From Turritopsis dohrnii (taxonomy: Eukaryota; Cnidaria; Hydrozoa; Anthoathecata; Oceaniidae), in contig BQMF02000198.1 of assembly GCA_027922465.2 (NCBI GenBank), forward strand, positions 310,001 through 374,000: DNA of 64,000 bases, read 5' to 3'. Made by a program: the position numbers and the translations under genes. The notes under the pieces are model-generated. The model saw only the letters and a program-made list of their open reading frames with translations. It was not told the origin of the DNA and did not search any database. Position 1 is the stretch's first letter, and each line of letters opens with the position of its first letter. Shown piece by piece: positions 12,485-64,000 of the stretch.

Positions 12485-12548
12485 ATGTGGATCCGGAAAC
12501 ATCTACTGTTTTGTGCTCTGAGCTGTTATCTCTTCTCCAGAGCTCAAG
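12485..12548 (+). CDS. Exon 1 of the FN3/LDLa gene: signal peptide
   Basis: This exon is too short for ordinary ORF detection. It reads MWIRKHLLFCALSCYLFSRA followed by Q: a basic start, a hydrophobic core and a small residue at the likely cleavage point. The donor is CAAG|GTAAT, phase 1, which fits the next exon at 12981. The start is the first ATG of this frame. Confidence 0.85.
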
Positions 12549-15500
12549 GTAATATAGCTAAACAGTCCATGTAATTAATTAGTATGTCAATTTTTTGAAG
12601 TAAACATTTCGCGTGAATGGCTGCAATAATCCCTTCCTTGTTTACTTAAATGCATAAAAATTAACTATGGAAAGTTTAAGTTTTTTTTGATGACTTGTAT
12701 TGTGTTGTTGTTGTTAGGTATTCGGGTGTAGAAGTTCTATCGATGAGTGTAAACTACACTTGTGGAGGAGAGAGCATTAAATACACTTCGGGGGAGTGTT
12801 TCTCTTTCCAAAAAAATACTTTGTTTAAAACCCATACACTTCTTGAAAGAGTTGGGTTCATAGAAGATATTGTTTCAGGGATACATTCGACGGGGTCTTA
12901 TGAAAAGATTTTATTCTATTCGTAAAGTTTTGTTTTTTTTAAAAAAAAAGACTTTTTTGTTATACTTTCGTTTATTTTAGGGCAACTCGGTCCAGTTCTC
13001 AATGTTACCGTATCACCTATATTATATGAAGAATCTTCTGCCGTTAACGTAACATGGCTTCCACCTACTAAAACAAATGGAGAGGACCCATCAACATTCA
13101 CATATAACTTTGAGTATTGCAGATTGAATCTCCCAGACACCTGCAAGAATATGAGTCTAACTTCTACTAGTGCAGAAGCTAAAACCTTAATGACATCTGA
13201 TTTATACCAGTATAAAATCACAGTGTTTGACTCAAAAATGATTGCTGGTGAAACATTGGAGGGTACATTTAGAACTGCTGCAAGAGGTGAGACAGTAGTA
13301 TAGGCCCTATACACAATACATAGCAATATCATTTTAAATGTTATAAAGGGTAGTTACTATGTTCGTTTGACAAATCGTTACCGTAAGACTTTTAAAGTGT
13401 AAACCTTTTGAAATGTGTTTGGATTAGTGAGGGTCAGGCTCGAGATTGGCCTCATTTATTCAAGTATTTTGATAAAAGTTTCCACCGTATTAATGTGATG
13501 GTAGCGATTTGTCAGATAAATATACTCGCTTTATCGCAGTACTGTAGACGCAAACTCTATCCTCAATCAATTTTGAAATGGTCTTCTCATACTAGCCGGC
13601 TAGCGAAATAGGAAAGAAACTCTGGGTACTAGGTTTACAAACCCATAAATCCATCTTTTTATTGGATAACGAAACCGAAAGCGAAACATAGAAAGATCGT
13701 GTAACATCATCATGAATTAGGCACTAACATTCATTCTTCATCTTTTTCACCAACAATATCTAGATACATGTCGCAGCACTCATTTCACTTGTGGTAGTCC
13801 TCAATGTGCCTTAAAAGAACGCTTATGTAATGGAATTCCAGATTGTGTTGATGGATCCGATGAAACTATAAGAGCAGGATGCAGTAAGTAGCACAAATCA
13901 ATTTAAAAAAAATACCATACGTATTTTATTGGTATTTTTACCAATAAAAATCAGCACAGTTTTGAAGCAATTATATCTGTTTATGAAACGTTTCAATGTC
14001 CCTACCAAACATGATCAGTAAAAAATGAAACAGAAGAATTTTCATTCATCTTCTTTGTATCTTTTTCTACATACCATAAAATAAAACTATACAAGTGGTC
14101 TGAAAAATCGGTTTCAGATTTGATGAGTTTATAACCAGTTTGTCTATAACCAAGATTTTTACTATAAAATTCTGGGCACTCTTTCCTTTCCTTCTTTCTT
14201 ATAGTATACTTGCCCAAATAAACATCTTTAACTTGCTAAGTGTTTAAAACTTTACTAAGTATGATCAAGTATGATCAAGTTTTGCAGCTTAGATCACAGA
14301 ATTCATGCCAGAATATTCCAGTATTTTAGTTCAACTTGTCCTTAATTTTTGGTGGATTTCAACTGCAAGTTGTTTCCATTCTGTTCTTAAGATTTTCACG
14401 ACAAATTTAGTTTTCAATAGTAAATTGATTTTCATTGTTATAATCCTGACCATCGGTTATATGATCAGTTGTAAAAGCTAGTTTTGATTTCTGCACGCAA
14501 TAAAGAAAAGCTTAAAATAATAATAAAGTTTGAAAAGTGAAGTTCTGAAATCTCCTAGTCTCAAATTGTTCCAAAATCGTTTCTTGCAAAAGAGACACCT
14601 AAGAGAATTAAGAATAATTTGATTTTGTTAAGGAAGTGTCGTAATGATAATGAATCATAAAATTGGAATCATCCTTTTATTTCCTTCATTAGGTTTGCCT
14701 CGTTCTAAAGTTACTGGTGTGACAGGGGTTTCTAAATCACCAACTTCCATTGAGATTACTTGGAATAAAATTACAAATTTAAATGATTTTCTAAAGAGTT
14801 ACCAAATCAGCAATGACAATACATCACTTATTGGAAGTATAAAACATCCAAAGAACCAGCCTGCCGTCACAACCTTGTCATATACATTTGATGGTCTTTT
14901 GTCAAATAAAATGTATTACTTCAAAGTCCGATCTGTTAATGGTGCTGGCAATGGGCCTTGGTCTGATACAATTTCAGTGCAAACACAGAAAGCTGGTAAG
15001 CTTGTCTTTGGGTATTTTTGTAGCGTCTGTTTAAACACACCCAAGTCTGGCAAATGTTAACTGTTGACATATTACTCCTTATGCAATTCCTTAAAGTTTT
15101 ATTGATTTTTTTCAGAGAAAGTTGGTGCAGTTTTTAATGTAACATTCAGTGATGTATTGTACGAAGAATCTACAAGTATTAAAGTATCATGGATGCCACC
15201 AATTAATGACAATGGAGAAGACCCATCAACATTCACATATAACTTTGAGTATTGCAGATTGAATCTCCCAGACACCTGCAAGAATATGTCATTGAATAAT
15301 ACTAGTGTGGAGATCAAAGAATTAATGCCATTGGATCTTCATCAATACAAAGTCACAGTATTTGACTCCCAAAAGGTTGCTGGTGAAATATCTGAGGGTA
15401 CATTCAAAACTAAACAGAGAAGTGAGCGTTGTTTATAATTATGTTATTGAGCTTTTATCATAATAGATTTTAGTGCTTTGTAACACCATGTTCCTTTGTT

Positions 15501-18500
15501 ACCTAGTTTAACTTTCTTGTGTCTTTTCCTCTACTACCATGTTACTTTGTGAAGATCAGCTTTGTTTAAGTCAGCTTTTTGTATTTAGATACATGTCGCA
15601 GCACTCATTTCACTTGTGGTAATCCTCAATGTGTCTTAAAAGGACGCTTATGTAATGGAATTACAGATTGTGCTGATGGATCTGATGAAACTATAAGAGC
15701 AGGATGCAGTAAGTTACATGCCTTGTCAGTTCTGAAAGTTGTATTCAACTTAAGGTTTATTATCATTATCACTAATGCATTTCCTCTAATAAATGATTGA
15801 AAAGATTTCAGACATTTACCAACTCTCCAACCCTGTAGCGTTTTTGAAGATACAAGAGTTTGGTTTGAATGTTCTTGCGCAATTAGTTACACATCAAAAA
15901 AATTAATGCAAACGTGGTAGAATTTTGTTGAAAACAAATAAAACTATTAACCTATTTAAACGATTTCTTGTTTAGCCTGTTTTTTTAATAAACATGGGTA
16001 TTTTCAAAATGCTGCATTTATTAGGAGATAGTGTTTATCAGAGGACAGTGACTATTACAAATGTTTGGCTATAAAGTGAAGCTTAATAAAAGGCGTCATT
16101 TTATCAGAGGGTAGCGTTTATTAGAGTAAATGCAGTAAAGTTTTCATCTCATACTACTACATTTCACTTTATTAATGGTTGTTCTTATTTGATTTAATTT
16201 TTCTTTAATTTGGAAAATTAATGAGCTCTTTGTATTTTCAAATTGTAACTTCTTTGTTCGTAATAATCTCAACTATCTTTTATTTTTTGTGATTGTCAAC
16301 TATCTCTATCTATAAGTTTTTTTTTCACAGCAAGAGTGCCACATTTATTGCATTATATAGTGTGTACCCATTTCATTATGGCTAATGTGTCAATGACATT
16401 ATAACTTTCTTTAGATACACCTCGCTCTAAAGTTACTGGTGTGACAGGGGTTTCTAAATCACCAACTTCCATTGAAATAACTTGGAATAAAATTACAAAT
16501 TTAAATGATTTTCTAAAAAGTTACCAAATCAGCAATGACAATACATCACTTATTGGAAGTATAAAACATCCAAAGAACCAGCCTGCCGTCACAACCTTGT
16601 CATATACATTTGATGGTCTTTTGTCAAATAAAATGTATTACTTCAAAGTCCGATCTGTTAATGGTGCTGGCGATGGGCCTTGGTCTGATACAATTTCAGT
16701 GCAAACACAGAAAGCTGGTAAGCCAACTACTGGATATTTTTATAGCATTTTTAAATTCACCCAATGTTGGAAAATAATATCAAATAGTGTCTTACCATAA
16801 TAATCTATAGAGTACTGAATTTTTAGAAAAAGTTGGTGCAGTTTTTAATGTAACATTCAGTGATGTATTGTACGAAGAATCTACAAGTATTAAAGTATCA
16901 TGGATGCCACCAATTAATGACAATGGAGAAGACCCATCAACATTCACATATAACTTTGAGTATTGCAGATTGAATCTCCCAGACACCTGCAAGAATATGT
17001 CATTGAATAATACTAGTGTAGAGATCAAAAAATTAAAGCCGAGGGATCTTCATCAATACAAAGTCACAGTATTTGACTCCCAAAAGGTTGCTGGTGAAAT
17101 ATCTGAGGGTACATTCGAAACTAAACAGAGAGGTGGGAATTTATGAATAATGTCTTTTCTCTTTAACATGATGTTAGTTTTCTTTAAGTGGTTTCAGAGT
17201 GTTTATTCCATGGTTGAATTAGTGATAAATGTTGGCCATCAGAACAAGAGGTTTGGGGTTCAACACTTGATGAATCATGCCAGCAACTATATCAGTGTGG
17301 ATTGATCTACTGCATGTAGCTATCATCTTGAGGATGAAATTGGTAGCAAATTGATTTAGCTTGAAAAACGTTTTTTTTAAACTTTCCATAGCCCAAATAG
17401 TGCTGCAAATGTCTTGATGTATGAAATACATTATAATCATTTCTAAAACCAAACCTGTAGGCATAATACTCACTGCTACTGTTTCCATTTCCACTGTATT
17501 TGACAAAGAGAGAAATTTCGTTAATTCATCTAAATTCTCCCTCTGAAAGAAAACTTTATAAACCATTTGATCTACATAAAGTCAAGTCCATTGCACGACA
17601 CCCATTGATCACAATCAGAACAGAAGAAGCAATCCTGGGTTAACATTAATAAAATAAATAAAGTTGTTTCAGTCATCCAGTTTTACTTGTGTGTGTGTTC
17701 CTCCCTTTTACAATGATAATTTATTACTCTACCTTGCTGGATTTTAGTTTTCACTGTTGTCACAACGTTTAAAACATTTTTTTGTAAAGACTCCTTCGTT
17801 TCTGCAATCCAGATAAATTTTATGTAGTTGTTTCATCAACTTACATAATTGAAACACTTCTGATGATGCAGCAAAATAATTCTTTAATCTTACCTTTCTG
17901 TTCAAAAATAAACAACTGGCCAAGCTAATGGGTTAGATTTCAGATGTTCAGTAGTTGATAATTGTTCATGTTTTGGGATGGAAATAAATCATCTGTATTA
18001 CTGAAACAAATACAACTACATTGGTAGCATTTTTTTACTGAACACTTATACCTAGTGAATCAAGTTTTGTAAAATGTTGCAACTATAATCATGATTTTTG
18101 TTTAGATGAGCTGAATCTTTATGTTATTTTTCTAATGTCATCTTTATTCTTTGTTTTTGTATTTAGATACATGTCGCAGCACTCATTTCACTTGTGGTAA
18201 TCCTCAATGTATCTTAATAGAACGCACCTGTAATGGAATTCCAGATTGTACTGATGGATCTGATGAAACCGCAAGAGCAGGATGCAGTAAGTAACACTTA
18301 CATTTGCTGTTATTTCTACTTACTTTTACACTTATTTCACTAAACTAGCTGCCAAAGCGGCATTGCTCGCCAAGCATGTTCAAGCTTGCCTTGTGTCGCA
18401 CGCCACCCAAATCAGCATACATTTTAGTCAAAATATTTCTTACGGGTTTTTATTTCGAAAATGAACCTGTGTCCCGTGTAAGCGTATAAACATTGTTGGA

Positions 18501-21500
18501 AGTACATTTACGTCTTTAGCGAACCCGATGTTGCTTTACACAGCTACTAAGCGGGCCCATTTGTTTTGTGGGCCCGACCTCGGGCCCGCTAAAGTTTTAG
18601 TTCATATATAGCAACTCACATAAAAGTTTTTTACGGGCCTTAATTTCGAAAAGAATGTGTGGAAGTCCTGTGTCGAAAATAGGTGACGAAAAATTCAATC
18701 ACGGAATTGTAAGTGGAAAGTGTATCCATGTAGTAGAGCTTGAAAAACTAATAAAAAAAGTGTATGGGATCGTTTAGCTACAACCAGCCGTTGCAGAGAT
18801 ATTGCCGACCAAAGATTTTGATGACGTCATAGCCGCAGTACCAAATAAAATTTAGGCCCAAATGTTGTGTCACCCCATCACCCGTATTGCAGACTCAAAA
18901 AAATGTATCTGTGTAACAATTTTTTGCCGTTTTCAGAAAGTCTGTTCAGATTTCGGACTGTTTGTTTATTCAGAATAGTTAATAACAGATCTAAAACTCT
19001 ATGCAAAATGTAATACGAAAAGGCCACTTTCAATATTAATTCACAATAATATTAACTTTTTTATACTTTTGAAATACTTTTAGAAGTTGTTTTTGCCGGG
19101 TTTTTTTGAAAACTTCCCAATTCAATCTTTAAAATTTTTATTATCAAGTTCGTAAAATATGCACAGAGAGCACATGAAATGTTTTCCAACCGATTTAGTT
19201 TACATTCTGAGGAAGTTGTAGAAGTAGCTTCTTAGATACTTTGAAGAATTTTAAACCCTGTCTTTATTTACTATTGCAATCGAAATATTATCATGAGAAC
19301 ATTCCTTATAGAGAAAATGTTGATGTTTAGCTGACTCTGGGAAAAAATTCTTGAATAAGAAGGTTAAGGCTTGATAATAAGCAAAACTTTGCTATGAAAA
19401 GAACTTTCAATATCACAGCAGAAATGTATGTAGTATCAACATTACTGGTGAATACGTCTTATCAATAAATGCATGAAAAATGCTCATTTCATTTAATAAA
19501 TATTAAACTGAAAGTTGAAGATATTAAAAAAAGCAAATGAAATTATCATAGCAGCACAAATTACTTCACTTGTTAATGAATTGACCCAAACATACATACA
19601 TACTGAAAGTATAAACATGTGCAAGATAATGGTGAACGATAAGTCTAATAAAACTGTTTTTCTGGCTCCAAAACGTCATAGTGAATTGAAAAGTGGTTGA
19701 AATTAATTTTAATAAATTAAAGGAGGGAGTAAGTTGGGGAATTCCAATTATATCAAATTATTTGTCACTGTACAATGCTCGGTCAAGTTATCACTGTATG
19801 GAACTGATTAGTTTTAAATTCACTTTGGAAAAGATGACATTGTTCAAAATAATCCTACAAAACACTCAACAGAGGCAGAATGATTTTAGTTTGGGATAAT
19901 CTTAGGAAAACAAACTTTGGATGATGATTAGAATCCAACCAATTATATACATACAATGAGATCACCAAAGCCTTGTGATAATATGGAGTGTAATATGTTC
20001 TAGGACACAATATAATCATGTTAGGAAAGAACATTGTCATAACAAAGTTTTATTGTGTCATTTGTCTTTTCGTGCACATTGATGTTACTTATAAGATTCT
20101 TCCAGTATTGAAAAGATTCAAGTGGTAATATGCAGACGTGTATCTAGAGGGTAGTTGCAACTTGTGGAGAAGCGCATTAACATAATTTGTAAATTCAGCT
20201 CATATTATCAATGGGATTATTTGAACCTTTTTCTTTTATGTTTTTCCTACACAAGTTGTGGCTTACCTCTGGACCCGCCACTGGCAGATTTAGTAGAAAT
20301 AGATTTTCATATTGTACATTATGTTGATTTAAGTTCTATATAAACAATATAATTTTTATCTTCTTGTAATCCTGGATTAAAATCTTTGAAATGCCAAAGT
20401 TTCTCATGCTCCTATTAATGCAAGTTATGAACAATTTCATGTAATATATATTTACTTAAATATGCACATTTCTGGCAAAATTTGGAAGGTGTGCACAAAG
20501 AACAATTGGAAGGTCCTGATATTAAAGTTGGCAGTTACTGGCAGATTTGGTCATAAATAGCCGAGGTCTTCAGCTTTTAAACAAGTTTGGTTGTATAGAT
20601 TTAATAGTTTAATAGTGTTGTGAAAGTCTTCAGCCTTTTTTCAAATGATTTTAGTTCACTTCTATCGAATATCATTTTATTCTCCATGTGAACCGTAAGT
20701 CAATTGTGATAGACCTGTTCTCACGTAAGCAATAAGAAAAGAATGGATAGTCGTTCAGATACCTTAGAAAATTGGTCATGCCATGAGGCTTCTAGTTGAA
20801 TTTAAAATGAAGCTTCTGAATGTTATAACACTTATTTTTTATATTATGTACTTTTACTATTCATTTTGAATAATTTCAGTCAACTTTAATATTTTGTGAT
20901 CTATCCATTAGTTTTTTTTTCGTAGTGAAATGGTGACATTTTACTGCACCTATTTCTATATGTCTAATCTGTATTGTTCCTTCTTTTAGATGCACCTCGT
21001 TCTAAAGTTACTGGTGTGACAGGGGTTTCTAAATCACCAACTTCCATTGAAATAACTTGGAATAAAATTACAAATTTAAATGATTTTCTAAAAAGTTACC
21101 AAATCAGCAATGACAATACATCACTTATTGGAAGTAAAAAACATCCAAAGAACCAGCCTGCCGTCACAACCTTGTCATATACATTTGATGGTCTTTTGTC
21201 AAATAAAATGTATTACTTCAAAGTCCGATCTGTTAATGGTGCTGGCGATGGGCCTTGGTCTGATACAATTTCAGTGCAAACACAGGAAGTTGGTAGGCCT
21301 TTTTATTTATTATTTTTATCCGAAATTTGATTGTAATGTTTTGATTCAATCAATCCTATTTCATATTGTTTGAGTCATATCAAAAGATATATCTAAAAAT
21401 GTTTTTTTTCTCATAGAAGCAATTGGTCCTGTTGTCAATGTTACAATATCTGAAATAATGTATGAGGAATCTTCTGCGGTTAATGTAACATGGCTTCCAC

Positions 21501-24500
21501 CTACTAAAACAAATGGAGAGGACCCATCAACATTCACGTATAACTTTGAGTATTGCAGATTGAATCTCCAAGACACCTGCAAGAATATGTCATTGAATAA
21601 TACTAGCGTGGAGATCAAAGAGTTAAATCGAAAGGATTTTTATCAATACAAAATCACAGTATTTGACTCCCAAAAGGTTGCTGGTGAAATATTGGAGGGT
21701 ACATTCGAAACTAAAGATAGAGGTAGGAATTTATGAATAATGTCTTTTCTCTTTAACGTGATGTTAGTTTTGTCCAAGTGAAATATTTGAGGGTATATGC
21801 AAAACTAAAGCGACAGGTGGGGTATTGCTGATGTGATTTGAATTTAGAACTTTAATTGAGTTTGAAGTGTACTTACAAAATGTTCAGTGGAAGCTTAATT
21901 TATGAAAAACGTGAAAAAGATTTATGTATTATTTTCATTGTCCTTTATTTTACAATATAATAGATTGCCTTTCTCTGCATTGGTTCATTGATTATTTGAC
22001 TGATTTTATAACAGATACATGTCGTAGCAATCAATTTACCTGTGGTAGTCCACAATGTGTACCTAATGACCGAAAATGTAATGGGATTGTGGATTGTGCT
22101 GATGGATCTGATGAAAGAAAGGGTGCTGGTTGCAGTAAGTTTTCGATTATTCTGAATTTAATATCTCACATTGATTGATCTTTTTTTTTTGAGCTTTTTT
22201 TTTAAAAGATCTGGTATTCATGGGTATTTTTGAGCACTTTTTTTACTCAAGATTAATTAAAAATAAAATTGTATTTGGTAAGCATTGCAGAATCATCATT
22301 TTTGTAGGTCCACCAGGAAAAGAAGATATCCCTGACGCTATGGAAACAGCACCAGGAAGTGTTACCATAACATGGAATAAGCCGAGAATTAATACAGATT
22401 TCATCGTAAGATTTGAAGTGCAAAATATTAATACAGAGCAAGTGAAGTCAGCGATTTATCCAATTAATCAGCCTGCCATTAAAAGTCTCAGTGTTGTGTT
22501 TACTGGATTAGCTGCAGGATTAGAACATTCATTCATTTTAAGAGGAGTTAATGAAGCTGGTAGTGGCGACTGGTCTGACCCAAAGAAAATACGAACCAAA
22601 GGTAGGGTCATTACTTACTATCTTCTCTTCAACTAAGAGCCTTTTCATCTGTTTTGTGACCCTGGTTCGAAACCCAACTTTCAGGTAGCCTCCAAATAGA
22701 TTTTACCACTTTCTGAAAAGTAGTAACCCGTGCATGCCTGTAGTCTGCTGCTTTTTAAAATTCGAGAAGCGCTTTAAACTGCTGCGACTAAAATTGCGAA
22801 CATTGGACATATTTTGTGTTTGTTCACCAGTCACAGGGATATATTTTTGTGAATGTATTCACCTATTATTCTAGCCTAGTTTGCATTGTCATGGTGCATT
22901 TTTAGGTAGTAGATTGATATACGTAAAGGAACAAGTTTAGAAGTAAATTCATACTATCCTAATTGTAATTTGTTTTGGTATCATTTTTCTTTCTTAAAAA
23001 AAATGTACACATTATTCATGACTATTTTATACTTCATAGTTTCAAGGGTAGATTTTTATCATGGGTTGAAGCCAACCATTTATATCATTAGTTTAGTTTT
23101 TAAAGTAGCTGTTAATCCCAATCCTTTAACAAAGGACTATCACGTTACTTTGTCTTATTTTCCCTCATGCGGTTTGTTATGACACTTATAAAATAATTGA
23201 TGTTACAATCACGTTTTTGATGTGCAACAGTCTATGTTGTTTCTTGAAACAACTCGTTGTCGTGGCTTGTTTCCTCAATGAAATTCACGAGCAAGGTAGG
23301 AAAGTTACATTTTCTTGATTCTATAAATTTTAAATATTCAATTGATAACCGTTCTGTTTATTTTTGTTGGTTCTCGAACAAGGGTCTCCCCTATATTTAC
23401 CTATGCAAGATCTTATTATCGGTTCAATGATGATTCTCTTGTAGTTGGAGCTGTTACAAATGTAACGGTTCATCCGATTCTGTACAAAGAACGAACAGCT
23501 GTCCGAATCGGGTGGATGCCACCAAAATATCAAGTTGGATTGAATGTTTCAACACTTCTTTATAATGTTACCTACTGCGAATTGAATTTGCCAGACACAT
23601 GCAAGACAACTGAGTTGAGCTCTCAAACCTTTCTGGAAGTCTTTGATTTGGATAGCAGACATCTTTATCAATATGTTATACATGTTTATACATCAAACCT
23701 TATTGAAGGAGACATCAAAGATGGGGCATTCAGAACCGCTTACAGAGGTATTAAGGCCCTTTTTTCTTTTAATCATATTTGAAGTAACAAATCTAAGTTG
23801 ATGCTTCCAAGTGAACGTTGTGATCCCATATTTTTCTTTCACGCTTTCTTTTATTAGATACTTGTCGAAATGACTCTTTTGCCTGTGGTAATCCTCAGTG
23901 TGTAGCAAATTTTAAGAAATGCAATGGTCGAAGTGATTGCGCAGATGGATCTGATGAGACCTCAAAAGCTTCCTGTCGTATGTTAATTTTTATTGTCTAA
24001 AAGTACCAACGGTACAAAAATAAAATTATGAAGAAGCAGTAGATAGAAATCAATGCAAGAATAGGCAAGGTTACGATGTTCTGATTGTCAAATAATAATT
24101 TAAAAGTTTGTTGCTCTGAAGGAATCTTTGATGTGACCAGGAAATCTTGAATGTTATTTTGTTCTTTTGTAGAGTTGCCTACTCGCATCCCGAAGATTCT
24201 TCTTGCAAAAGCCACGTCAAAAATGTCAGTTCAAATCACATTTTCTGTAATAAAATACCAGCCAGATCGAATCAAAACCTACCAAGTACAGAACACAAAT
24301 ACGTCAAGTTTGATGGATGTTCGGGTTCCTCCTCTCTCACCAGCTACTGTAAACTTAAGTGCCACTTTCAATGACGTCCTACCTGGTAGATATTTTGTTT
24401 TCCGTGTGCGAGCTGTGAATCCTACAGGTTATGGCGATTGGTCAACTCCTGAATCAGTGAAAACCCCCAGTGCAGGTAAAGTTTCCCAGCCGGCACAATT

Positions 24501-27500
24501 GTTAAAAAATCTCTGCGAAGGAGTGCATTTCTATAGAAATATACACAAAATTTCAATGCAAATGCTCTCCGTCGCAGCGACTTTTTGACGATTTTGCCCA
24601 CTGGGTTTATTGGTAGTTGATAAGTGAAATCCCCTTCGTAAGTACACGATTTTTTAATAAGAAGGCTTACAATTCAGAGATACAGAAAGCTTTGAAGGTG
24701 CTCACATTTTTAGATAATGTTTGGTTCTGAAGTTGCTTAATGGTTGTTGCATTTTCTGTATACTATCAGAACGGAAATGACTTAATGACTATATTTTGTT
24801 ATGACTGAAAAAAAACCCCTCATTTGCCATGGGCAACTATTTTATATAGGGTTGAGGACTCAGGGTAGCTTTGAGTCGGTTATTAGCTACAAAGAAAATC
24901 ATTTCGTGGTTGACGACAGCAATGTCCAAACTCTCATTGTTGATTTCTGATCTGGTCATTACTTTTGTCTGTGTTGTTTGTTTAGCCGTTGGATTAATCG
25001 GCCCCGTCGAAAATGTCAAATCCAGAGCAGTTTTGTATAGCGAGGCAACAGCTGTGAATATCACTTGGAGCGCTCCTAGCGAACTCAAAAACAACTCGTT
25101 GGATTCGCTAACATACGTGGTACGATACTGCAAAGGAATCGCATCGTGCTCAACTCCGGCATTGCAGATGTCGAAAAATTTTCTCGAAATTTCAGGGTTG
25201 ATTGAGAGAAGCACATACACATACATCATAACTGTTTACAATGAAAATGGAGAACACGACCCTTCTTTGTTTTACAAAGGGACATTTTCAACGAGTGCAT
25301 TAGGTGAGACTGTTATCGAAGCTTGAAGTTGAGGGAACGTTCAATTTCTACGAGAATTTACAATGAAACGTTTTTTAAAATTTGCACTCTGGTATTACTT
25401 TCCCGGATAAAATTAGAAATCTTTCAGCATGAAATTAGACGCTACAAATTGCCCGCTCAATTTTAAAGAGTATTGTGGTGATGACTCTCAAACGTAAAAG
25501 AACGACAATAGTTTTGTTTCATTATATTGATCTGTTCGATGTTACTTCTTATAGATACCTGTCGTTCGACGTGGCATCGTTGTGTCGTCGGACATAAGTG
25601 CATCCAACCAGATAGGGTTTGTAACGGCAGGTCGGACTGTGGTGACGCAAGTGACGAAAAAGTCGGTGCCGGTTGTGGTAAGATGACGTAGTGTTTTAAA
25701 ATTGTGTTTTGTGTGAACTATGGCGGTCATTATTATGTGACAGCCATTTTGGTCGGAGAACATTTTGTTGTCCAATTGTGTTTGAAAAATCTATCTGTGC
25801 ATGAAAGTGAAAGCATTTATAGTTGGGCAGGTTATTTCATTCGTGTTAATAACAACTTAAGACCTAGGTCCTTATAAGCTTCTCCGTCCTGTTAATCTAG
25901 TGCCCAAGATCGTTTTTGTCTAAAAAAACGCAAAAATTCTTTAGAATGAATAAAACAATGCGCCTCACATCAATTGTCGATCCCTCTTCTCTTTTTATCA
26001 AATTTTTCTAAGAATAGCGACTTAAAAAGGCGTATTCATTTCTGATTTAGCGCCCCCGCCCGACGTGAAGAATTTTATTGTACGCAATACAACAAACCAC
26101 ACCATTACGTTGCAATTTAAAGCCATCATAGCTCCATCACATCGCATTACCGGTTACGAAGTGCAGAATTATGTTACCAACGAGAAGAAACGTATCAGTC
26201 AAGGCTTAGTGGCGTTTCGACCGCCTATACAGGTTACATTCAGCAACTTGAAGTTTGCCACGCACTACCAGTTCAGAGTTGTGGCGATCAATCCAAGTGG
26301 CGTCTCTCTTCAACCCGCCATGCTCGACACTCATACTGTTGGAGGTAAGAAACACATTCCACTCGTACGTACACAACCTCATACGACATGTTTGTTAGGG
26401 AAAATTTATGGGAACGTGTGACCAATGTCATTGTGAGGTTTTTGAGTTGATTTTTGTCGTGGTTCAGTAAAATGTTCTTTGATGATGAACAGCGTTTGGG
26501 AAAGCATTTGGACAATGCTCCGTTGCAAGACTTTTTTTTATGCAATCCTTTCCCTTGTTTTGATTTGCGATAGTGATGATTTTGTGTGTTCATTTTCCAT
26601 AACAGATGTTTATTTTTCGAAGTCCTTTTGTCATGATAAAAGTACGCAATACTTAAGATCATATGGAAAAGACATGTTATTTATAAATAGCGAAGTTTTT
26701 TTTGTTCTGTTTTGTGTAAATTTTTCTCATCGTCTCATGTTTTGATCTCAAAATATATCTCGTTTGCTTTTCTTTTTTCTTTATAGCGGCAACAGGTCCA
26801 GTTCAAAACTTGAAAATTGTGCCAAAACCGCAGAATGAAATCAGAAGTGTGATTTTAACCTGGGATCCTCCCAAAAAGCTCTTCGATAACGATGTGGACG
26901 AATTGAAGTACTACGTTAGATTTTGCAGACTTAACTTGCAAAGTACCTGTAAGTTTACCCAACGCATGATGGCAAGAATGGTGGAGATTGGCGATTTAAA
27001 TCGAGGTGATCTATACCAGTTCGGCGTCTATACGGTGAACAAGTATAATGTCAGTAGTGAGATCTTGGAGAAGGCTTACATGACGAAATCTGAACGTAAG
27101 TGATTAAAATGTTAAAATCTCGTGATATCATTGGATTGTTTGATCAGTAAACGGTACCGGCTGGTAGCGTTGTGGTACAGTGCTCGCTTCCTGTCTGGGA
27201 GGTCGTGGGTTCAATCCCCGATCGATTCATGCCAGCGAGTATAACACTCCTATATATAATCACTCCACTCTGCTTAGCACTCAGCAGGAGAGTAGGGATG
27301 ATGTCTGGGGCGGTTGTCTAGTTCCTGTCATTACAACTTCCGTTGCCCAAATGGGTGCTTTAAGTGCTCTATGACCCTATTTGATGACAGTACCTTAAGG
27401 AACTGAAGATGCTATCCTGGGTAAACATTCAAAAATAAATAAATAAATAAATAAATTCAATGAGCTTAGAAGGTAAAACAAGATAGTATGAATGGCAGTT

Positions 27501-30500
27501 TTTCTTTTGCGTCTTGACGGTAATGTGATGGGAAGGAGCCAACAAGAAATGTTCAATGAAATCGTAAAAGAGTTTGAGAACGAAACTGCTATTTACATTT
27601 TTTGCTCGGGCTATTAAAGGTAGAAAATAAAGCATTGCATAATGGTTCTTTAAGAGATGAACCATAACCTTTACTCCTTGAAGTCCCAGAAGGGGTGTTT
27701 CGCCCACCCACCTTACCTGCAGGTGATATTTTGAATTAGAAAATTCTGTTGGACGGACTTCGATACTTTGAGAAGCTTTTAAAACTGACTAGTGTATATT
27801 AAGTTAAAATTGTTTAAATTATGTGAAACATAACCAGTTAAACTTTAAATGAAGCCTTTAATATTTACATTCGCCTAACTGCTACCGTAACAGTTCAAAT
27901 TTTAGTGAGTCTGTTGGATGGAAGAGATAGAATTTATACAATAAAGTTTTTTAATAACCAGTCAAGTTCCACCTCGAATAACAAACAAATGCGAAAAATT
28001 AGTTTATAATGCATAACTTGGATCCCTTTAGAACATTATCTTGTCAAAATTATATCCATATTGAAAATTTATTGGAACAAAAATCAAAGACTAAGATTGG
28101 TATAATGTCTGTTGGACGGAATCTGTTGGACGGAGCGATTGCAACAAATTTTTCAAGTAAACATATTTAATATTACAATAGCTAAAACTTGATTTATTTA
28201 CTATCAGTTAATTTTGATGGTATTTGAGATCTTGATGAAAATAAAATAAAAACAATTTTTAATGTATAAAGCTTCTAACAATCTATACAAACTTAACTCA
28301 ATTTTATGATGAAATTTATTGACATTTGGTAGTTTTCATCCAACAGACCGTCATTAAAGTTCCTAAAAGAACATGATAGCCAAAAACTATAAAAACTTTA
28401 GAAGGAGTGTTGCATTTAATCATTCCTTTCAATTTGGAATGTATAGGTTATAAACTGAGTGAATTTCATTTTTCAATGTTTGCAACACAATTCAAAATAT
28501 CACCAGCATTGGTATACGAATTGCTATAAATTTGCTATAAGCGTTCATCTTTGTTTGACTTTTCTTTTCAGTGACATGTCTTTCAAATCAATTTCAATGT
28601 TCGACGAAACGTCAATGTGTTCATAACAAATTTTTATGCGACGGCATTATGCAATGTGCCGGAGGAAGTGACGAAACGGCTGACGGTAATTGCAGTAAGT
28701 ATTAGAATTTCTATTATGTTTTTAATCTATACACGATTGATAGAAATGTTAAATTATTTTTTTGTTCTTTTGTTAGCTAAACCAGTGTTAAAACCGACAT
28801 CTGTCACCGTCAAAAAAGCGACAACGACGTCAATTACCATTCAATTCAAGCAAGTTCTTCCGCAAGACAGAGCGAAACGTTACGACATTCGGTTAACCGA
28901 TACGAAAACAAACGAAGTCAAAACGAACAGCGTTCCTGCCACGTTAGCTATTGGTGCGCCAAAGGAAACAGAATTCTCCAACTTGATTCCCGGTTCCTCG
29001 TTCGTTGCTCAAGTGAGAGCTGTTAATTTGGTCGGCTATGGTCCATGGTCGTCTGAAGTCGAAGTCGAAACAGTCTTAGGTTAGTTACTTGAAAGTCCCT
29101 GTTGTTTTCGGATGCAATAACCCAGTCAAAAAGTCACTTTGAAGAAGAGCATTTTCATTGAAATTGTGTGTAAATTTCTATTGAAATGCACTCCTCCACA
29201 GTGATTTTTTAGCAAATGTGCCGGCTGGGAAACCTTTCTCGATTTTCTGTCATCGTATAATCTAATGATAGAAACTATATTAATAAATTATAAAGTAATG
29301 AAATTTGTGAAACAACGAATCGCATGAAAGTGAGGTTAGGTATGAAACTCGGCCACCATTCAGCGTTTATGCTAGAGTTCGGGAAATGTCTAATATAACT
29401 TCGCAAAAGACTCTATTATAACCAATCCATTCTCATATAACAAACGTTAACGCCCTTCCATGTTTGGGTGTCTCTTTCATAACGCCCTTCCATGTTTGAG
29501 TGTCTCTTTCATGTTTCTCAAAATTAAAAAAAAAAAAAAAAATTAGATATTCGTTTCTTTTCCTTTCTCTATTTTTTACGCCTTTTTTAGTCAAAGTCAC
29601 TAATACTTTACGCCTTTTTTAGTCAAAGTCACTAATACTTTGCGCCTTTTTTAGTCAAAGTCACTAATACTTTACGCCTTTTTTAGTCAAAGTCACTAAT
29701 ACTTTGCGCCTTTTTTAGTCAAAGTCACTAATGCTTTACGCCTTTTTTAGTCAAAGTCACTAATACTTTGCGGTGATGTTTATTTTACAGAACAACCCAA
29801 GACGAAACCCGAGAAGATAACAGTGGTTAATAAAACTGTCAGCGAGTTCATCTTAACATTTGAACAACAAGTCAGTGATGGAGCTGCCCAGTACCAAGTT
29901 GAGATTCAATCAGGTGATACAACCTGGTACCAGACCTTCAACAAAACGGACCCAGCCTCCAAGGAAATGGTAACCATAAAAGGTCTCCAACCTGGTAAAA
30001 CATACAGTATGCGTGTCCGTGCTATGAATGAACTTGGAATGGGTCCATGGTCACAACCGTTCACAGCAAAGACTGGTAGGTGGACAAAAAAAAAACAACA
30101 CGATTTTCTGTTACTTCTGCGTTCGTTTTTTGATATAAGAAACACATTTATTTGTCACTGTCTTGAACTAAAAGACCCAACCCACTGCGAAGAAGAGCAT
30201 TTTTATAGAAATAGTGTGCATATTTCTCTTCAAATGTACTCCTTCGCATTGATTTCCCAGCAACTTTGCACACAGTTAAAGTTCTGAAATTCCAGAAATT
30301 TATTTATTTATTTATTGTAGTTTTTCTTTTAATTAACGTTTCAGTACCTGGTACCGACACAAGTGACGACGACGGTGGTTTGAATACCGGCGAAATTGTC
30401 GGCATCGTCATTGCTGCTGTTTTAGTTCTTATCATCATAACTTTAATAGTAGTGTATGTGAGGAAATCAAAGTCCCACGGTGCCGTGCGTTTTGGCAAAG

Positions 30501-30571
30501 ATTTTTACGGGATCGAAAACGGGGTGTCGAACGGATTTGACAATTCTGCTTACGAGATGGACAAAAAATAA
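12485..30571 (+). CDS. Single-pass membrane protein with seven FN3-LDLa-FN3 units (main isoform)
   Basis: Predicted exons: 12485-12548, 12981-13286, 13764-13883, 14693-14995, 15116-15421, 15589-15708, 16415-16717, 16827-17132, 18167-18286, 20990-21292, 21417-21722, 22015-22134, 22308-22601, 23445-23747, 23858-23977, 24173-24475, 24986-25303, 25555-25677, 26051-26344, 26787-27095, 28572-28694, 28777-29079, 29791-30075, 30345-30571. Together they give 1893 codons including the stop. The order is signal peptide, 7 x (FN3b, LDLa, FN3a), FN3, acidic linker, transmembrane helix, short tail. All internal exons are phase 1-1 and each encodes one domain. FN3b has two extra cysteines (EYCRLNLPDTC); the LDLa modules keep the calcium-binding core DCxDGSDE. 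Such modules mediate ligand binding or adhesion at the cell surface; the ligand is unknown. I do not recognise a named orthologue. Exon borders come from splice-site reading and could differ by a few bases. Confidence 0.88.
12981..14995 (+). CDS. Unit 1 of the FN3/LDLa gene (three exons)
   Basis: FN3b 12981-13286 (GQLGPVLNVTVSPILYEES), LDLa 13764-13883 (six cysteines, CNGIPDCVDGSDE) and FN3a 14693-14995 (ITWNKITNLNDFLKSYQI). The FN3a exon differs from its counterparts in units 2 and 3 by only about ten bases in 300. The intron from 13884 to 14692 holds no other feature I can name. Confidence 0.88.
15116..16717 (+). CDS. Unit 2 of the FN3/LDLa gene (three exons)
   Basis: FN3b 15116-15421, LDLa 15589-15708 and FN3a 16415-16717. 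The exons are nearly identical to those of unit 3. The intron before FN3a carries one copy of a hairpin-type repeat family (15880-16135). Confidence 0.9.
15880..16135. repeat. Dispersed repeat with TTTATTAGAGG motifs, copy 1
   Basis: About 255 bases that align with 42754-42963: both share AATTANTTACACATCA, AACAAATAAAACTATTAA, TTGTTTAGCCTGT and several GCGTTTATTAGAG-like blocks, and both end in AAATGCAG. This copy is more decayed and has lost the strong hairpin seen in the other. Confidence 0.8.
16827..21292 (+). CDS. Unit 3 of the FN3/LDLa gene (three exons)
   Basis: FN3b 16827-17132, LDLa 18167-18286 and FN3a 20990-21292. The intron from 18287 to 20989 (2.7 kb) is the longest in this gene. 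It includes a GC-rich patch near 18550-18590 with a GCGGGCCC/GGGCCCGC inverted repeat, but no gene I can support. Confidence 0.88.
21417..22601 (+). CDS. Unit 4 of the FN3/LDLa gene (three exons)
   Basis: FN3b 21417-21722 is close to units 2 and 3, and the first 50 bases of its 3' intron also match those after the unit 3 FN3b. LDLa 22015-22134 and FN3a 22308-22601 are clearly diverged (PPGKEDIPDAMETAPGSVTI). The block therefore joins a recently copied exon to older ones. Confidence 0.87.
23445..24475 (+). CDS. Unit 5 of the FN3/LDLa gene (three exons)
   Basis: FN3b 23445-23747 (VTNVTVHPILYKERTAVRI), LDLa 23858-23977 (CNGRSDCADGSDE) and FN3a 24173-24475 (KILLAKATSKMSVQITFSV). The same domain order and phase 1-1 borders as the other units. 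The preceding intron (22602-23444) has no supported feature. Confidence 0.85.
24485..24605. mobile_element. Foldback MITE family, copy 2 (near complete)
   Basis: 121 bases from CCCAGCCGGCACAATTGTTA to GACGATTTTGCCCACTGGG. The ends are imperfect inverted repeats and the whole can fold into one long hairpin. It starts only 9 bases after the donor of the unit 5 FN3a exon. Confidence 0.88.
24986..26344 (+). CDS. Unit 6 of the FN3/LDLa gene (three exons)
   Basis: FN3b 24986-25303 (AVGLIGPVENVKSRAVLYS), LDLa 25555-25677 (CNGRSDCGDASDEKVGAGC) and FN3a 26051-26344 (PPPDVKNFIVRNTTNHTI). In this LDLa the usual DGSDE is DASDE, with the acidic calcium ligands kept. Confidence 0.85.
26787..29079 (+). CDS. 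Unit 7 of the FN3/LDLa gene (three exons)
   Basis: FN3b 26787-27095 (FCRLNLQSTC keeps the cysteine pair), LDLa 28572-28694 (CDGIMQCAGGSDETADGNC; the usual aspartate in DCxD is replaced, so calcium binding may be weak) and FN3a 28777-29079. The intron from 27096 to 28571 holds a SINE and a probable inverted-repeat element. Confidence 0.85.
27152..27460 (+). mobile_element. tRNA-derived SINE
   Basis: An A-box-like GGTAGCGTTGTGG at about 27163-27175 is followed 32 bases later by a strong B-box GGGTTCAATCCCC at 27207-27219, the spacing of an RNA polymerase III promoter in a tRNA head. A unique body follows, and the element ends in an (AAAT)n tail at about 27430-27457. It lies in an intron of the FN3/LDLa gene in the sense orientation. 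No tRNA fold is complete, so this is a SINE rather than a tRNA gene. Confidence 0.8.
27720..28506. mobile_element. Probable non-autonomous element with 17-bp inverted ends and repeated CTGTTGGACGGA motif
   Basis: The left end CAGGTGATATTTTGAATT is the inverse of the right end AATTCAAAATATCACCAG (one mismatch). Inside, CTGTTGG(A/T)(C/T)GGA motifs occur near 27746, 27908, 28108 and 28123, with an inverse form near 28338. I see no transposase frame and no clear target-site duplication. Confidence 0.55.
29121..29229. mobile_element. Foldback MITE family, copy 3
   Basis: Begins CCCAGTCAAAAAGTCACTTT and ends TTAGCAAATGTGCCGGCTGGG, so it is inverted relative to copy 2. It lies 41 bases after the unit 7 FN3a donor. 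Confidence 0.8.
29449..29512. repeat. Two tandem 32-bp units
   Basis: AACGCCCTTCCATGTTTG followed by AGTGTCTCTTTCAT or GGTGTCTCTTTCAT, twice in a row. It lies in the intron before the FN3 exon at 29791 and has the same 32-base period as the next repeat, although the sequence differs. Confidence 0.85.
29575..29772. repeat. Six-copy 32-bp tandem repeat next to a splice acceptor
   Basis: The unit contains CGCCTTTTTTAGTCAAAGTC followed by ACTAATACTTTA. It recurs at 29579, 29611, 29643, 29675, 29707 and 29739 with single-base changes (TTTACG/TTTGCG). The array stops about 18 bases before the acceptor of the FN3 exon at 29791. Each unit carries a CCTTTTTTAG that looks like a 3' splice site. Confidence 0.95.
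29791..30075 (+). CDS. Membrane-proximal FN3 exon of the main isoform
   Basis: An FN3 domain of about 95 residues with conserved late core LQPGKTYSMRVRAMN and PWSQPF, phase 1-1. It follows the last LDLa-FN3a pair, has no LDLa partner, and leads into the transmembrane exon at 30345. Confidence 0.87.
30175..30274. mobile_element. Foldback MITE family, copy 4 (degraded)
   Basis: Contains ACTGCGAAGAAGAGCATTTT and TTCGCATTGATTTCCCAGCAA. The outer ends are eroded. It lies between the membrane-proximal FN3 exon and the transmembrane exon. Confidence 0.65.
30345..30571 (+). CDS. Terminal exon A: transmembrane helix and FDNSAY tail
   Basis: After the acceptor TTTCAG, the exon encodes VPGTDTSDDDGG, then GEIVGIVIAAVLVLIIITL with VVYV as a membrane helix, then a basic stop-transfer RKSK. 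A tail of about 35 residues ends in GFDNSAYEMDKK. The FDNSAY stretch fits the FxNxxY class of clathrin-adaptor/PTB-binding motif (FDNPVY in the LDL receptor). An AATAAA follows about 50 bases after the stop. Confidence 0.87.
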
Positions 30572-30620
30572 AATCTAAATGAGTCATGTAAATATGAATG
30601 AATGTATGCTTGAATGTTAA

Positions 30621-30626
30621 AATAAA
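30621..30626 (+). terminator. AATAAA polyadenylation signal after terminal exon A
   Basis: A canonical signal 49 bases after the stop at 30571. It supports exon A as a real 3' end of the gene. Confidence 0.65.
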
Positions 30627-31090
30627 GTTACCTCAACCTCCCCTTTAGTTCTTTTGTCTCAGTCCTCCCCCGTATAATACTGAAGACGGTAGGAAAGTCA
30701 CGTAGTGACTCCACTTGAAAATGTATGTTGTTATTTTTTTGTAAAAACCGTTTCAGTTATTTATTAAATTATTTTGGTTGATAAAAATGTATTAGTATTT
30801 TCGGAATACATTTATGTTGTTTTCACTTTTCGTCTGTTAGTTGTTTTATGTTATTGGATGAAAGAAAGTTACGTCTGCTTTATATAGCTTAAAAGAACCA
30901 ATCCCTGATGCGTTAGATAAATGTTTTTAGTATGCGCGCTGTTTTGGTTCAAGAGTTTCACGAAATTTCGCGTGTTTACTTTGCGTTATCTGGAGGCTAC
31001 CTGAACACTATCTAAAAGATTATAAATGTGATCGTATGTGCACATGTAAAGCCAACGTATTACCAGAATTTTTATTTGATTTTCTTTTAG

Positions 31091-33104
31091 GCGTAAGCTC
31101 CAATCAAGTTACTGCAAAAAGCACTGACGACAGCATATCTCTGACGTTCCCGCCTAATATTCCCAAAAGTGTTGATTACGTCGTAGAGATTGAATACAAA
31201 AGCGAGTTTTCATCGCCTTGGAAAACCATATCTTTCAACAAGACAAGTAGTGGTGCACAGGAAACTGTCAAACTAACACAGCTCAGTAATGGCACCTACT
31301 GGATACGCATGCGAACCAGGACTTCGCAAGGAATTTCCGCATGGTCTGACCCAGTCATTCAAGAAATAAGTAAGCTTTGTTTGAATTTAACGTAGGCGAG
31401 CGACTTTAGTTTTGAATTTAACGTAGACCAGCGACTTTAGTCTTGGCTAAAACTAAAACACTTCACAAAAATTTTTGAGACACCTTTTTTTTTTGAAATG
31501 AAAAATCCGAAAGTCATATGTGAGACCACACCCTCCATAATTCAATATTGTATATGGCTTCACATACAAAGGCAGAAAGCCACGTAGAAGACTTTAAACA
31601 AGTACAACTTTGAATTTTAGGGGAGGGGGAGGCTGTCTCGTATTTTTCGTGAACGATTGTAGATTGAGAAAAGTTTAAAATAGGAATAGGAGTTCTTGTT
31701 TTTTGTATGGCGTGAAATCTTCGGATTGTCCGCCCTATCTTACGACAACAGTACGATGAACCTTCGGTATTTCAAACTCTCTTAAGGTGTGAGTAAGGGA
31801 AAAAAACGTGTTTTTGTTTTTTAATTAATTCCTTTGACAGGAATATGTTTATATCAAGTATGATACATTTTTGGAAAGCTTATTTACATCTCTAAAAGCC
31901 CATGTTAAAAATTTTAAGGTAAACTAAAAATGTAAGATTTTAGAACGAGTCAAAGAAAATGAACCTTGTTGTAAAAACGTAGCTCCATTTACAAAACGAG
32001 TTAAGTTTAACTTATGTTTTTTACACTTTTGTAATCACAAGAGATAGAGTAAAAAACGGTTTTTTCTTTTTTTACTCAAACAAATTATTTTCAGAGTTAT
32101 TTTCAATTTCTCAAAAGTATCGTTTTCTGTTTTCATTTTTTTTGCTTTCAAGACTATAACTCATATTCTGTTCAAATTAAAAAGATAAAAAAAAACCGTT
32201 TTTAGATCTACCCTTCAGCTTGTCAGTAAGCCAAGTCTCACTGTCAGAGCTTTTTTAGTTTTGTAAATGAAGCATCAAACGTTAGTGGCTCTGACACGAA
32301 AAGTGAACACTGAAAAAAACAGCTTTAAAGATTTTTCTTTATTGCGTGAACTAATTAATTATTTATGAAACGGAATTTTGAAACAAAAGGATCAATACGC
32401 AACATGATCAATATGTTTTATTTTTTCATGGTCTTTAATGTACACAAATTAGCCGCTAATACAACGGTTTTGGAAAATAAACGGACTTCCCATCCACTTC
32501 CTGAAAAAATAGTTTCACCATTGGAAAATTCAGAGTTCCTTTCATCCTGATGTGCAAAAAAACTTTTTTTCAAAAATGTCAATGATTTTTCCCTTACTCA
32601 CACCTTAAGGTGGAACGTCTCGATTTTACGCGGAGACAATCTGTCATTTTATTTTAGAGAATTGAAGAACGAGTTTAGTTAAACCTCAGTTTAAACAGTT
32701 GTGCCAATCATTTATTTTTCTTTAAAAAAACACGACAACATTGAGTCATACTGTGGCATCTTTGTTTTTCAATCCTAATAAAATAAGGTGCTCCTCCGTT
32801 GCTGTTTCTAATAAAATAACATTCTCCTTTGTGCTGTTTCCCCCTCGAGCACATGTTTTAAACATCTTCATGATGACATTTCATTACAGAACATGATGAC
32901 AATAAAAAAGATGACGACGACGACAGCGGCTTGAGTGACGGTGAAATTGTCGGTATTATTGTGGGTGTGGCACTGGTAATGATACTTATCATCGTGTGTG
33001 TCGTTTGTATCAGGTCACGTGACCAAGGATCAGCAAGTATGGTGGAGAAAGGAAGAGCGAACGGTTACCAAAATTCTGCTTACGAATTGGAAAAGAAATA
33101 TTGA
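31091..33104 (+). CDS. Second terminal cassette: FN3 exon plus transmembrane exon B (alternative 3' end)
   Basis: Two predicted exons: 31091-31369 (an FN3 domain ending GISAWSDPVIQEI) and 32890-33104. The second encodes an acidic linker (KKDDDDDSGLSDGEIVGI), a membrane helix and a tail ending GYQNSAYELEKKY. Both are phase 1 at the upstream side, so the main gene could splice into them in place of, or after, the FN3 exon at 29791. The design copies terminal exon A: the same GEIVGI entry to the helix and the same NSAYE tail motif. It has no signal peptide of its own, so an alternative 3' end is more likely than a separate gene. A leftover partial duplication is also possible. Confidence 0.75.
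31786..32604. mobile_element. 819-bp TTAA-flanked terminal-inverted-repeat element (piggyBac-like MITE)
   Basis: A perfect 19-base terminal inverted repeat, GGTGTGAGTAAGGGAAAAA, lies at both ends and is bordered on each side by TTAA (31782-31785 and 32605-32608). TTAA target duplication is typical of the piggyBac superfamily. The interior has no transposase frame, so it is non-autonomous. It sits in the intron between the two exons of the second terminal cassette. Confidence 0.9.
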
Positions 33105-35417: not shown

Positions 35418-36643
35418 TTATGGATCGGGAGTGTTACTATCTCCACCGGTATTTTTAAGGCACACAGCACATCTACTAACGCGTTTACGCAATTGTCCAG
35501 ATTTTATTGTTTCAGGTTGAGGTACCTGGAATTGACTTTGTTCATCGATTGTCGAAAGCCAGAAACTCAATGTGGGTCCATAATACCAACAGGTGCCACG
35601 TCCGTGACATTCAATGAAAGGATTGACGCGGAAATCTTGAAGACACGAGCCTGAGGATGCCAACATTTGTCCAGCTCCTTCGGCACCGGCGCTGTTGTAC
35701 TATGGAGAGAAGAGAAATTGGATTTACTTACTACTGCACTTAGATAAACTGAACATGAGTTTATAGATGTGATTCTGCTATTTGTGTGAAGTAGCCAATG
35801 TAATTGATATACAGACATCAAATAGTTTATTCATCAGACAAGTATTATGATAAAGCCTATGACTTGAAGAATCCCGTATTAAACAGTATGGTGAAGAACA
35901 CTTACCATCAAGAAACTCCAGCCGTTCCACAGGTTGGACCATCCACTAGGACAGCTTGGAATTATGTCACTTTGACTATGAACTGCAAGCACATTAGCCG
36001 GGGCTTCGCACACCACACATCTAAAGGAAGATAGAAACATAAGAAAACATGCATTCAAAGTTTTTTTTTCGAAAGAACACTGTAATGACTGGAAATATTC
36101 TTATTTCAATTTTACCTGGATATGTAAGGCTCTACTTCACTTCCGGAAGCTGCTCTCATCATGTTCACTGGTTCTTCAGTACTTAACCAGAAAGAGTAAT
36201 CATTCCTTGATGCAACTGTGCATTGATTCTGTAAATCACAGAACATAAACGGCATGGTACTGAACCGTGTCAAACATGAGCCAGGTTTACCAAGATCTTG
36301 CCCAAAAGCACGTTCGTTTCCTTGTGCATATAAGAAACTGTAGCCTTCCCATAATTTAGCCATAGCATTTGGACATTGAGGAATCTAAAACAGTAATAAT
36401 AGAAATTAAATAGCAAAACAACACAGAACCATGAGTCACCAAACACAATGCAAATCCCGTCGTCAATATGGTACGAATGGATAAGATTTCATACATCTGT
36501 AGATTGACTGTGCTTGACAAGGTAAAAACCAAAGTCAGCCGATCCACTTCTTCCAGGAGGACCAACACTTCCTGGGTCTCCGATTGGTCCAGCAGCTCCT
36601 TGAGGTCCAGGTGGACCGTCGCGACCTCGTGGTCCGTCATCAC
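35418..36643 (-). CDS. Collagen IV NC1 domain (last four exons)
   Basis: Exons 36643-36495, 36384-36116, 36020-35906 and 35699-35418. The helix ends with GPPGRSG and NC1 begins [13 protein letters not shown]. Repeat 1 has the hallmark stretches [24 protein letters not shown] and [10 protein letters not shown]; repeat 2 has [25 protein letters not shown] and [11 protein letters not shown]. These are unmistakable C4 repeats, with cysteine positions as in other alpha(IV) chains. NC1 selects and trimerises chains and links trimers tail to tail. Confidence 0.97.

Positions 36644-48994: not shown

Positions 48995-64000
<15,006 letters not shown>

Follow-up and report, generated by a model that had tools for sequence, protein, structure and literature searches.

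Long stalks of fibronectin type III (FN3) domains on a single transmembrane (TM) helix are known from sidekick, DSCAM, neogenin and the receptor phosphatases, and the same build is found in a putative receptor gene that we describe here from the hydrozoan Turritopsis dohrnii. The gene lies in a 64,000-nucleotide stretch of contig BQMF02000198.1 (C198), the whole of which we call the window. LDLR and LRP also resemble this receptor in having LDLa modules, and perhaps in a tail motif akin to NPXY, which is FDNPVY in LDLR (excerpt of PMC4584282). SorLA (SORL1) combines LDLa and FN3 modules with a single TM helix and a tail motif of the form F-x-N-S-x-Y; this motif, FANSHY, binds Vps26 (excerpt of PMC4584283). 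The Alr1 and Alr2 proteins of Hydractinia are likewise cnidarian membrane proteins. According to excerpts of the respective papers, their loci are part of an allorecognition complex (PMC3276163), and the proteins carry immunoglobulin-like domains and cytoplasmic tails of 200–250 residues (PMC7563517).

In the window, seven exon triplets, each consisting of an FN3 exon of one type (FN3b), an LDLa exon and an FN3 exon of a second type (FN3a), lie within positions 12981–29079 of the + strand, in a gene encoded at 12485–30571. The predicted protein of ~1890 residues would begin with a signal peptide and continue with the seven FN3b-LDLa-FN3a blocks, a membrane-proximal FN3 domain, a TM helix and a tail. 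Judging from the sequence, we read it as a type I single-pass receptor with a seven-triplet stalk, calcium-bound LDLa modules, alternative 3′ ends and an endocytic-type tail, and we give this reading a probability of about 0.6.

The exon chain was read from genomic sequence alone, in a single assembly. When spliced in silico, the 24 exons that end in the first TM exon (isoform A) form a single open frame of 1892 amino acids (aa) with a terminal stop only. The chain that ends in the second TM exon (isoform B, 1886 aa) is also one open frame with a terminal stop only, and a third chain, in which both membrane-proximal FN3 exons (c1 and c2) precede the second TM exon, is likewise open (1981 aa). 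Counting both 3′ ends, all acceptors (25/25) are AG and all donors (24/24) are GT. The length of every internal exon is divisible by three, and the joins are in phase 1 throughout. The open frame, the canonical junctions and matches to Pfam fn3 and Ldl_recept_a bear out the preliminary description, which proposed seven triplets in one chain with phase 1-1 borders. One signal-peptide start and continuous phase-1 joins favour a single gene over units belonging to separate genes. Separate genes are also disfavoured by a TM query, which matched C198 at two terminal exons only.

All exons are on the + strand. The signal-peptide exon (12485–12548; MWIRKHLLFCALSCYLFSRAQ-G, with a phase-1 donor) has a hydropathy peak of 2.06 over 12 residues. 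The FN3b exons 1 to 7 are located at 12981–13286 (YCRLNLPDTC), 15116–15421, 16827–17132, 21417–21722, 23445–23747 (diverged), 24986–25303 (YCKGIASC) and 26787–27095 (FCRLNLQSTC). The LDLa exons are found at 13764–13883, 15589–15708, 18167–18286, 22015–22134, 23858–23977, 25555–25677 and 28572–28694, and the FN3a exons at 14693–14995, 16415–16717, 20990–21292, 22308–22601, 24173–24475, 26051–26344 and 28777–29079. The triplets were previously taken for the whole ectodomain. This is not the case, as a membrane-proximal, cysteine-free FN3 exon (c1, 29791–30075) follows them and stands outside them. It precedes an exon encoding the first TM helix and cytoplasmic tail (TM1, tail 1; 30345–30571), whose product ends in NGFDNSAYEMDKK before the stop, and an AATAAA occurs at 30621. 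Further downstream, c2 (31091–31369) encodes a second membrane-proximal FN3 domain that is probably an alternative to c1 and scores 24.8 bits against fn3, for which the cut-off is 25. The second TM helix and tail (TM2, tail 2; 32890–33104) end in NGYQNSAYELEKKY before the stop, with the nearest AATAAA at 33745. The end of the gene had been placed at 33104, which belongs to the second set of FN3, TM and tail and is only one of two possible ends; the duplication of the 3′ end had been missed.

Pfam assigns isoform A to fn3 with an E-value of 7.8e-103, although only 11 stretches pass E 0.1 on their own, versus 15 modelled FN3 exons; taken singly, several FN3b exons are too weak for Pfam fn3. Ldl_recept_a is matched with an E-value of 3.9e-61 and in 7/7 modules. 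Isoform A has 33 N-glycosylation sequons (overlapping count) and 58 cysteines, which are distributed over the LDLa modules (42), the FN3b domains (14) and the signal peptide (2). As originally proposed, paired cysteines are specific to FN3b: they are present in 7/7 FN3b domains of the window, and cysteines are absent from 7/7 FN3a domains. The spacing is C-x7-C in six FN3b domains and C-x5-C in FN3b 6. An AlphaFold2 model of FN3b 1, based on a 7-row alignment of the window FN3b exons, is a confident FN3 domain with seven strands (mean pLDDT 93.7). Because this model has Cys46 towards the end of strand C (residues 40–47) and Cys54 immediately ahead of strand C′ (55–59), a disulfide closing the C–C′ loop is plausible.

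Both tails are 30–36 residues long and terminate in [F/Y]-x-N-S-x-Y-E. Tail 1 contains FDNSAY, which conforms to the F-x-N-S-x-Y form of SorLA, and tail 2 contains YQNSAY, with Tyr for Phe. By analogy, the motif hints that the protein is taken up and recycled through adaptors or retromer, which we regard as a lead. By eye, an ITAM or an ITIM in the tails was rejected, given the acidic residue at +3 after the Tyr.

In spite of the similarities noted above, the receptor differs from each of these systems. SorLA-type matches contain VPS10 (PF15902), and most also have a YWTD repeat (PF00058), whereas PF15902 was not detected in isoform A. Moreover, the LDLa row precedes the FN3 row in SorLA protein P0071, whose tail contains FANSHY, while the receptor described here alternates FN3b, LDLa and FN3a seven times. 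The absent VPS10 and the alternating order rule out membership in SorLA. In the genome, PF15902 has 4 matches, on C32, C216 (2) and C245, and none on C198; C216 also holds an LDLa cluster. LDLR and LRP have EGF and YWTD modules, in place of which the present receptor has FN3 domains, and its motif has Ser for Pro. Isoform A matched 12 Pfam families at E≤0.1, and neither PF00058 nor any EGF family was among them, so membership in LDLR/LRP was ruled out as well. Sidekick, DSCAM, neogenin and the receptor phosphatases differ from the receptor in that the latter has an LDLa module per unit and cysteine-paired FN3b domains, and matches neither PF07679, PF13927 nor a phosphatase family. From the Alr proteins, as far as the excerpted description goes, it is set apart by its FN3/LDLa content and by its 30–36-residue tails. 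Membership in Alr was rejected from the Pfam matches, as isoform A has none to the Ig families PF00047, PF07679, PF07686 or PF13927 at E≤0.1. Ig_Rha78A_N and Ig_J_second, which are 'Ig' by name, do pass the cut-offs in isoform A, on FN3 stretches.

Protein searches, in each of which ~8000 candidates were picked by shared exact words and a length of 0.55–1.75x the query, yielded 94 and 65 proteins at E≤0.001. The best matches (117 and 143 bits) are ~25% identical. All matches that have both FN3 (PF00041) and LDLa (PF00057) also contain VPS10, except P0161, which has YWTD, and therefore none shows the layout of the receptor. One of the two queries was the older half of the molecule, which retrieved no relative with the triplet layout among ~8000 scored candidates. 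Given the candidate and length limits, such searches could overlook relatives that are distant or shorter. In the literature, no named family with the FN3b-LDLa-FN3a order appeared in titles and the beginnings of abstracts of the papers listed; the excerpts of PMC8242945 and PMC12716839 name FN3 and LDLa merely among many domains. Modular LDLa/FN3 receptors are of a known kind, but we could not match the triplet layout to a named family, in agreement with the earlier suggestion of an undescribed receptor or adhesion protein; the further suggestion that it is lineage-specific goes beyond what searches of this scope can support.

As to what the protein might do, we infer that it is best seen as a receptor for adhesion or uptake, stabilised by calcium and bearing a tail motif similar to those of LDLR and SorLA. 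Its 22 extracellular domains would form a long stalk, in which each LDLa module, probably calcium-bound, would be held between a disulfide-containing FN3b and a plain FN3a. The seven similar sites could bind a repeated or multivalent ligand, in the matrix or on another cell; stalk-mounted LDLa modules between FN3 domains, together with the sequons, would suit such binding. The choice of a terminal pair would swap the membrane-proximal FN3 domain and the tail and keep the remaining ectodomain, and the tail motif would direct uptake and recycling by way of adaptors or retromer. The number of triplets could expand and turn over thanks to the symmetric phase-1 exons and to exon homogenisation.

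Several observations weigh against this reading. The tail motif is short and was selected after the fact, and both tails have Ser at the position of the LDLR Pro (NSAY vs NPXY). In the family described below, the gene-1 tail of C295 and the first tail of C77 are without the motif, and all that the second tail of C77 shows is an NSKY close to the membrane. When the tail motif was compared with three receptor proteins, P0071 showed one, and P0030 and P0163 did not. LDLa 7 has lost one usually acidic position (MQC; xDC in the others), which we take to be calcium-binding. As for the two ends, the identity between c1 and c2 is 28%, little above that of unrelated FN3 domains, and c2 is long-branched.

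A tentative alternative, to which we assign about half the weight of the receptor with an endocytic-type tail, is that the protein is purely adhesive: its stalk would link cells or anchor them to the matrix, and its tail would bind PTB-type scaffolds with no uptake. Adhesion or receptor proteins, among them sidekick and receptor phosphatases, do make up many of the named matches outside LDLa proteins. In a comparison of the FN3b model with the PDB (146 matches at E≤0.001, those listed being mostly FN3 domains), the best matches are fibcon, sDscam, sidekick-2, PTPRZ, and growth hormone and cytokine receptors, all FN3 domains, and neogenin was also matched; the FN3 domains of sDscam, sidekick-2, neogenin and PTPRZ would fit adhesion. 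However, this likeness is of a generic FN3 kind: identity is mostly 20–31% and confined to a small portion of the query, and there are also matches to cytokine receptors, titin and other proteins. An FN3b profile similarly retrieved generic FN3 proteins from the PDB sequences, with titin at the top. To our knowledge, few pure adhesion proteins contain LDLa modules, which also weighs against this alternative.

Because a second set of FN3, TM and tail sequences (31091–33104) follows the first, the receptor gene is likely to end alternatively in one of two 3′ terminal exon pairs, c1+TM1 or c2+TM2. The two sets are related in sequence at 25/88 residues (c1 vs c2) and 32/68 residues (TM1 vs TM2), and in a 70-row tree of FN3 domains c1 and c2 pair with support of 100/91, c2 having a long branch (2.77). 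It is unlikely, in our judgement, that two adjacent genes are present instead, one ending with TM1 at 30571 and the other being a truncated gene or remnant with only c2 and TM2. This arrangement would account for the 519-bp gap between TM1 and c2, in which the AATAAA at 30621 is located, and by eye the open frame of c2 contains an in-frame ATG ahead of the exon. The stretch from this ATG (MCTCKANVLPEFLFDFLLG) nevertheless looks like a poor signal peptide, c2 and TM2 have open frames and AG/GT junctions and retain the tail motif, and the related gene on C77 likewise bears two TM/tail exons. The latter are in tandem near 988.6 and 989.2 kb and have phase-1 acceptors, as judged by eye. The AATAAA at 33745 is far more distant from the tail-2 stop than that at 30621 is from the tail-1 stop.

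Repeats occur in the introns of the gene. The intron directly before the c1 exon has ~6 copies of a 32-base unit at 29575–29769 (96% matches), which might affect the choice of 3′ end. A dispersed repeat of ~80–100 bases is found in both orientations at 29131–29230, 24484–24583, 56960–57056, 11837–11917, 30183–30269 and 44119–44205. The copies are 78–86% like the one at 29131–29230, and three are within introns of the receptor gene; there are three weaker matches besides.

A search of the genome (436 Mb, 891 contigs) with FN3b exon 4 retrieved 43 matches (E≤1), which lie on C198, C275, C295, C77, C283, C124 and C37. An FN3b-LDLa query from C77 retrieved 56 matches (E≤0.01); these are again on the seven contigs, apart from a single match on C95 and another on C216. 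The preliminary description treated the receptor as one protein; it is one member of a multi-locus family on seven contigs. C77 and C283 are mostly 88–96% identical where aligned over 20 kb (pieces 80.6–95.9%) and could represent a single locus in two haplotypes, in which case the family would occupy six loci, not seven.

The regular FN3b-LDLa-FN3a order is found in the window (7 units), on C295 (7) and on C275 (4, one broken). Five of the seven triplets on C295 have an exact spacing of 1263 bp; four of the five 1263-bp registers are 99.5–100% identical, introns included, and the fifth is 87% identical position by position. A long retroelement-like open frame adjoins this array at 359876–362443 (by eye). 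The four C275 units are 97.5–99.4% identical where aligned, and in one of them the LDLa and FN3a frames are broken. On the − strand of C275, a frame for a CBM_14 chitin-binding domain (411447–411686, E 2.4e-7) lies downstream of the triplets, with Thr/Ser-rich frames on the same strand; if this domain and the triplets belong to one gene, the product may be secreted and chitin-binding. C77 is more diverged and its order is less regular, with FN3b and LDLa sharing one open frame in several units. Ig domains occur upstream of the triplets on C77 (two) and C275. On C37, diverged C77-like FN3b exons, in part with LDLa exons, occur in one orientation at 413001–418000, 477001–482000 and 484001–490000, with a TM exon in one of these three blocks, which suggests a tandem gene group.

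The two FN3 types are separated in the 70-row tree, in which 47 FN3b rows fall on one side and 21 FN3a and 2 FN3c rows on the other (support 100/99). FN3 matches below 20 bits or 60 residues were left out of this tree, and the tool cautioned that columns were few and branches long. The window's FN3a 5 clusters with FN3a of C295 (95/82) and then with FN3a of C275 (97/91), and this grouping across loci fits duplication of whole triplets. Among the family stretches retrieved (matches of at least 60 residues, E≤0.01), the cysteine pair is present in 42/47 FN3b, 0/23 FN3a and 0/4 FN3c-type domains; the rows are not independent, since the profiles come from window exons, and near-copies and the C77/C283 pair are included. 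The five FN3b domains in which the pattern used did not detect the pair are three C77/C283 rows (other spacing or none), one from C37 and one further row from C283. From these sequences, the FN3b and FN3a lineages appear to be older than the separation of the loci.

Within the window, the copies are of mixed age: in protein, FN3a 1–3 are 95–98% identical and FN3b 2–3 96%, and units 5–7 are diverged. In bases, FN3b 2 and 3 are identical at 297/306 positions, and FN3a 2 and 3 at 298/303. Synonymous divergence (dS) is 0.01–0.07 for FN3a 1–3, 0.04–0.11 for LDLa 1–3 and 0.03 for FN3b 2/3, and 0.64 for FN3b 1/2. FN3b 1 is a patchwork relative to FN3b 2 and to FN3b 4, with 36-base windows of 97–100% identity beside windows of 47–67%. 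The exons are more alike than the introns. The short introns between FN3a and the following FN3b align at 72–76%, versus 67–69% for shuffled sequences, and two of three pairs score within what 200 shuffles span. Given the level of the shuffled controls, simple identity between introns was not accepted as a measure, and the figures for intron pairs of unequal length were set aside. Exons that are alike where introns have drifted more are what gene conversion would give, and it would explain the homogenisation, with selection on codons as the alternative. On the other hand, one of the three intron pairs is above all 200 shuffles (20.8 vs 2.7), and a blastn match between a1–b2 and a2–b3 runs through the intron, at 90.9% over 748 bases.

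Expansion and homogenisation of this kind could also yield copy-number and sequence variants within a population, as would be expected of a receptor that recognises self/non-self, gametes or microbes. We regard this as quite improbable. It would be in keeping with the near-identical arrays on C295 and C275, the patchwork FN3b exons of the window, and the several related loci with upstream Ig domains on C77 and C275, putatively in the same gene. By contrast, the near-identity of FN3a 1–3 in protein means that there is no hypervariable domain there in the young units, and hydroid Alr1 and Alr2 carry immunoglobulin-like domains (excerpt of PMC7563517). About as improbable is a hydrozoan receptor system apart from Alr whose cassettes would expand, contract and convert within arrays at several loci, with C-terminal exons chosen independently; cassette number and sequence at the cell surface would differ between individuals and serve in the recognition of self, gametes or microbes. 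An assembly artefact, in which misjoined repeats produced near-identical units, is very improbable for the window: FN3b 2/3 and FN3a 2/3 are near-identical in bases, but the LDLa-to-FN3a introns of units 1–3 are 809, 706 and 2703 bp long, so these units are separate pieces of DNA; the doubt is stronger for C295 and C275.

Regardless of function, the receptor with its seven triplets is a clean example of a family grown by repeating one three-exon cassette. If its arrays vary between individuals, it would be a testable hydrozoan recognition candidate outside the immunoglobulin-type allorecognition genes. If they are invariant, there would still be an unmatched LDLa/FN3 layout that naturally comes with two C-termini and may have a tail of the SorLA/LDLR type.

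We now note other features of the window. An Rfam scan of the window detected no family at the gathering score. Upstream of the receptor gene, a ubiquitin-conjugating-enzyme-like frame was seen by eye at 2336–2940 (+), and a PEX6-like gene with one open frame of 786 aa is located at 4094–6453 (+). The PEX6-like protein is 53% identical to that of Hydractinia symbiolongicarpus and 47% to that of Hydra vulgaris. These two are the only named animals among 12 matches, of which four others are 43–53% identical; they support a cnidarian origin of the DNA, most likely from a hydrozoan and less likely from another medusozoan. Parts of this gene (around 4578–4770) are repeated at ~7424–7560 beside a duplicated flank, which by eye has the look of a fragment copy. 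Downstream, a collagen IV-like gene occupies 35421–40100 (−), with NC1-like frames close to 35.6 and 36.2 kb and numerous frames of Gly-X-Y repeats, again as seen by eye.

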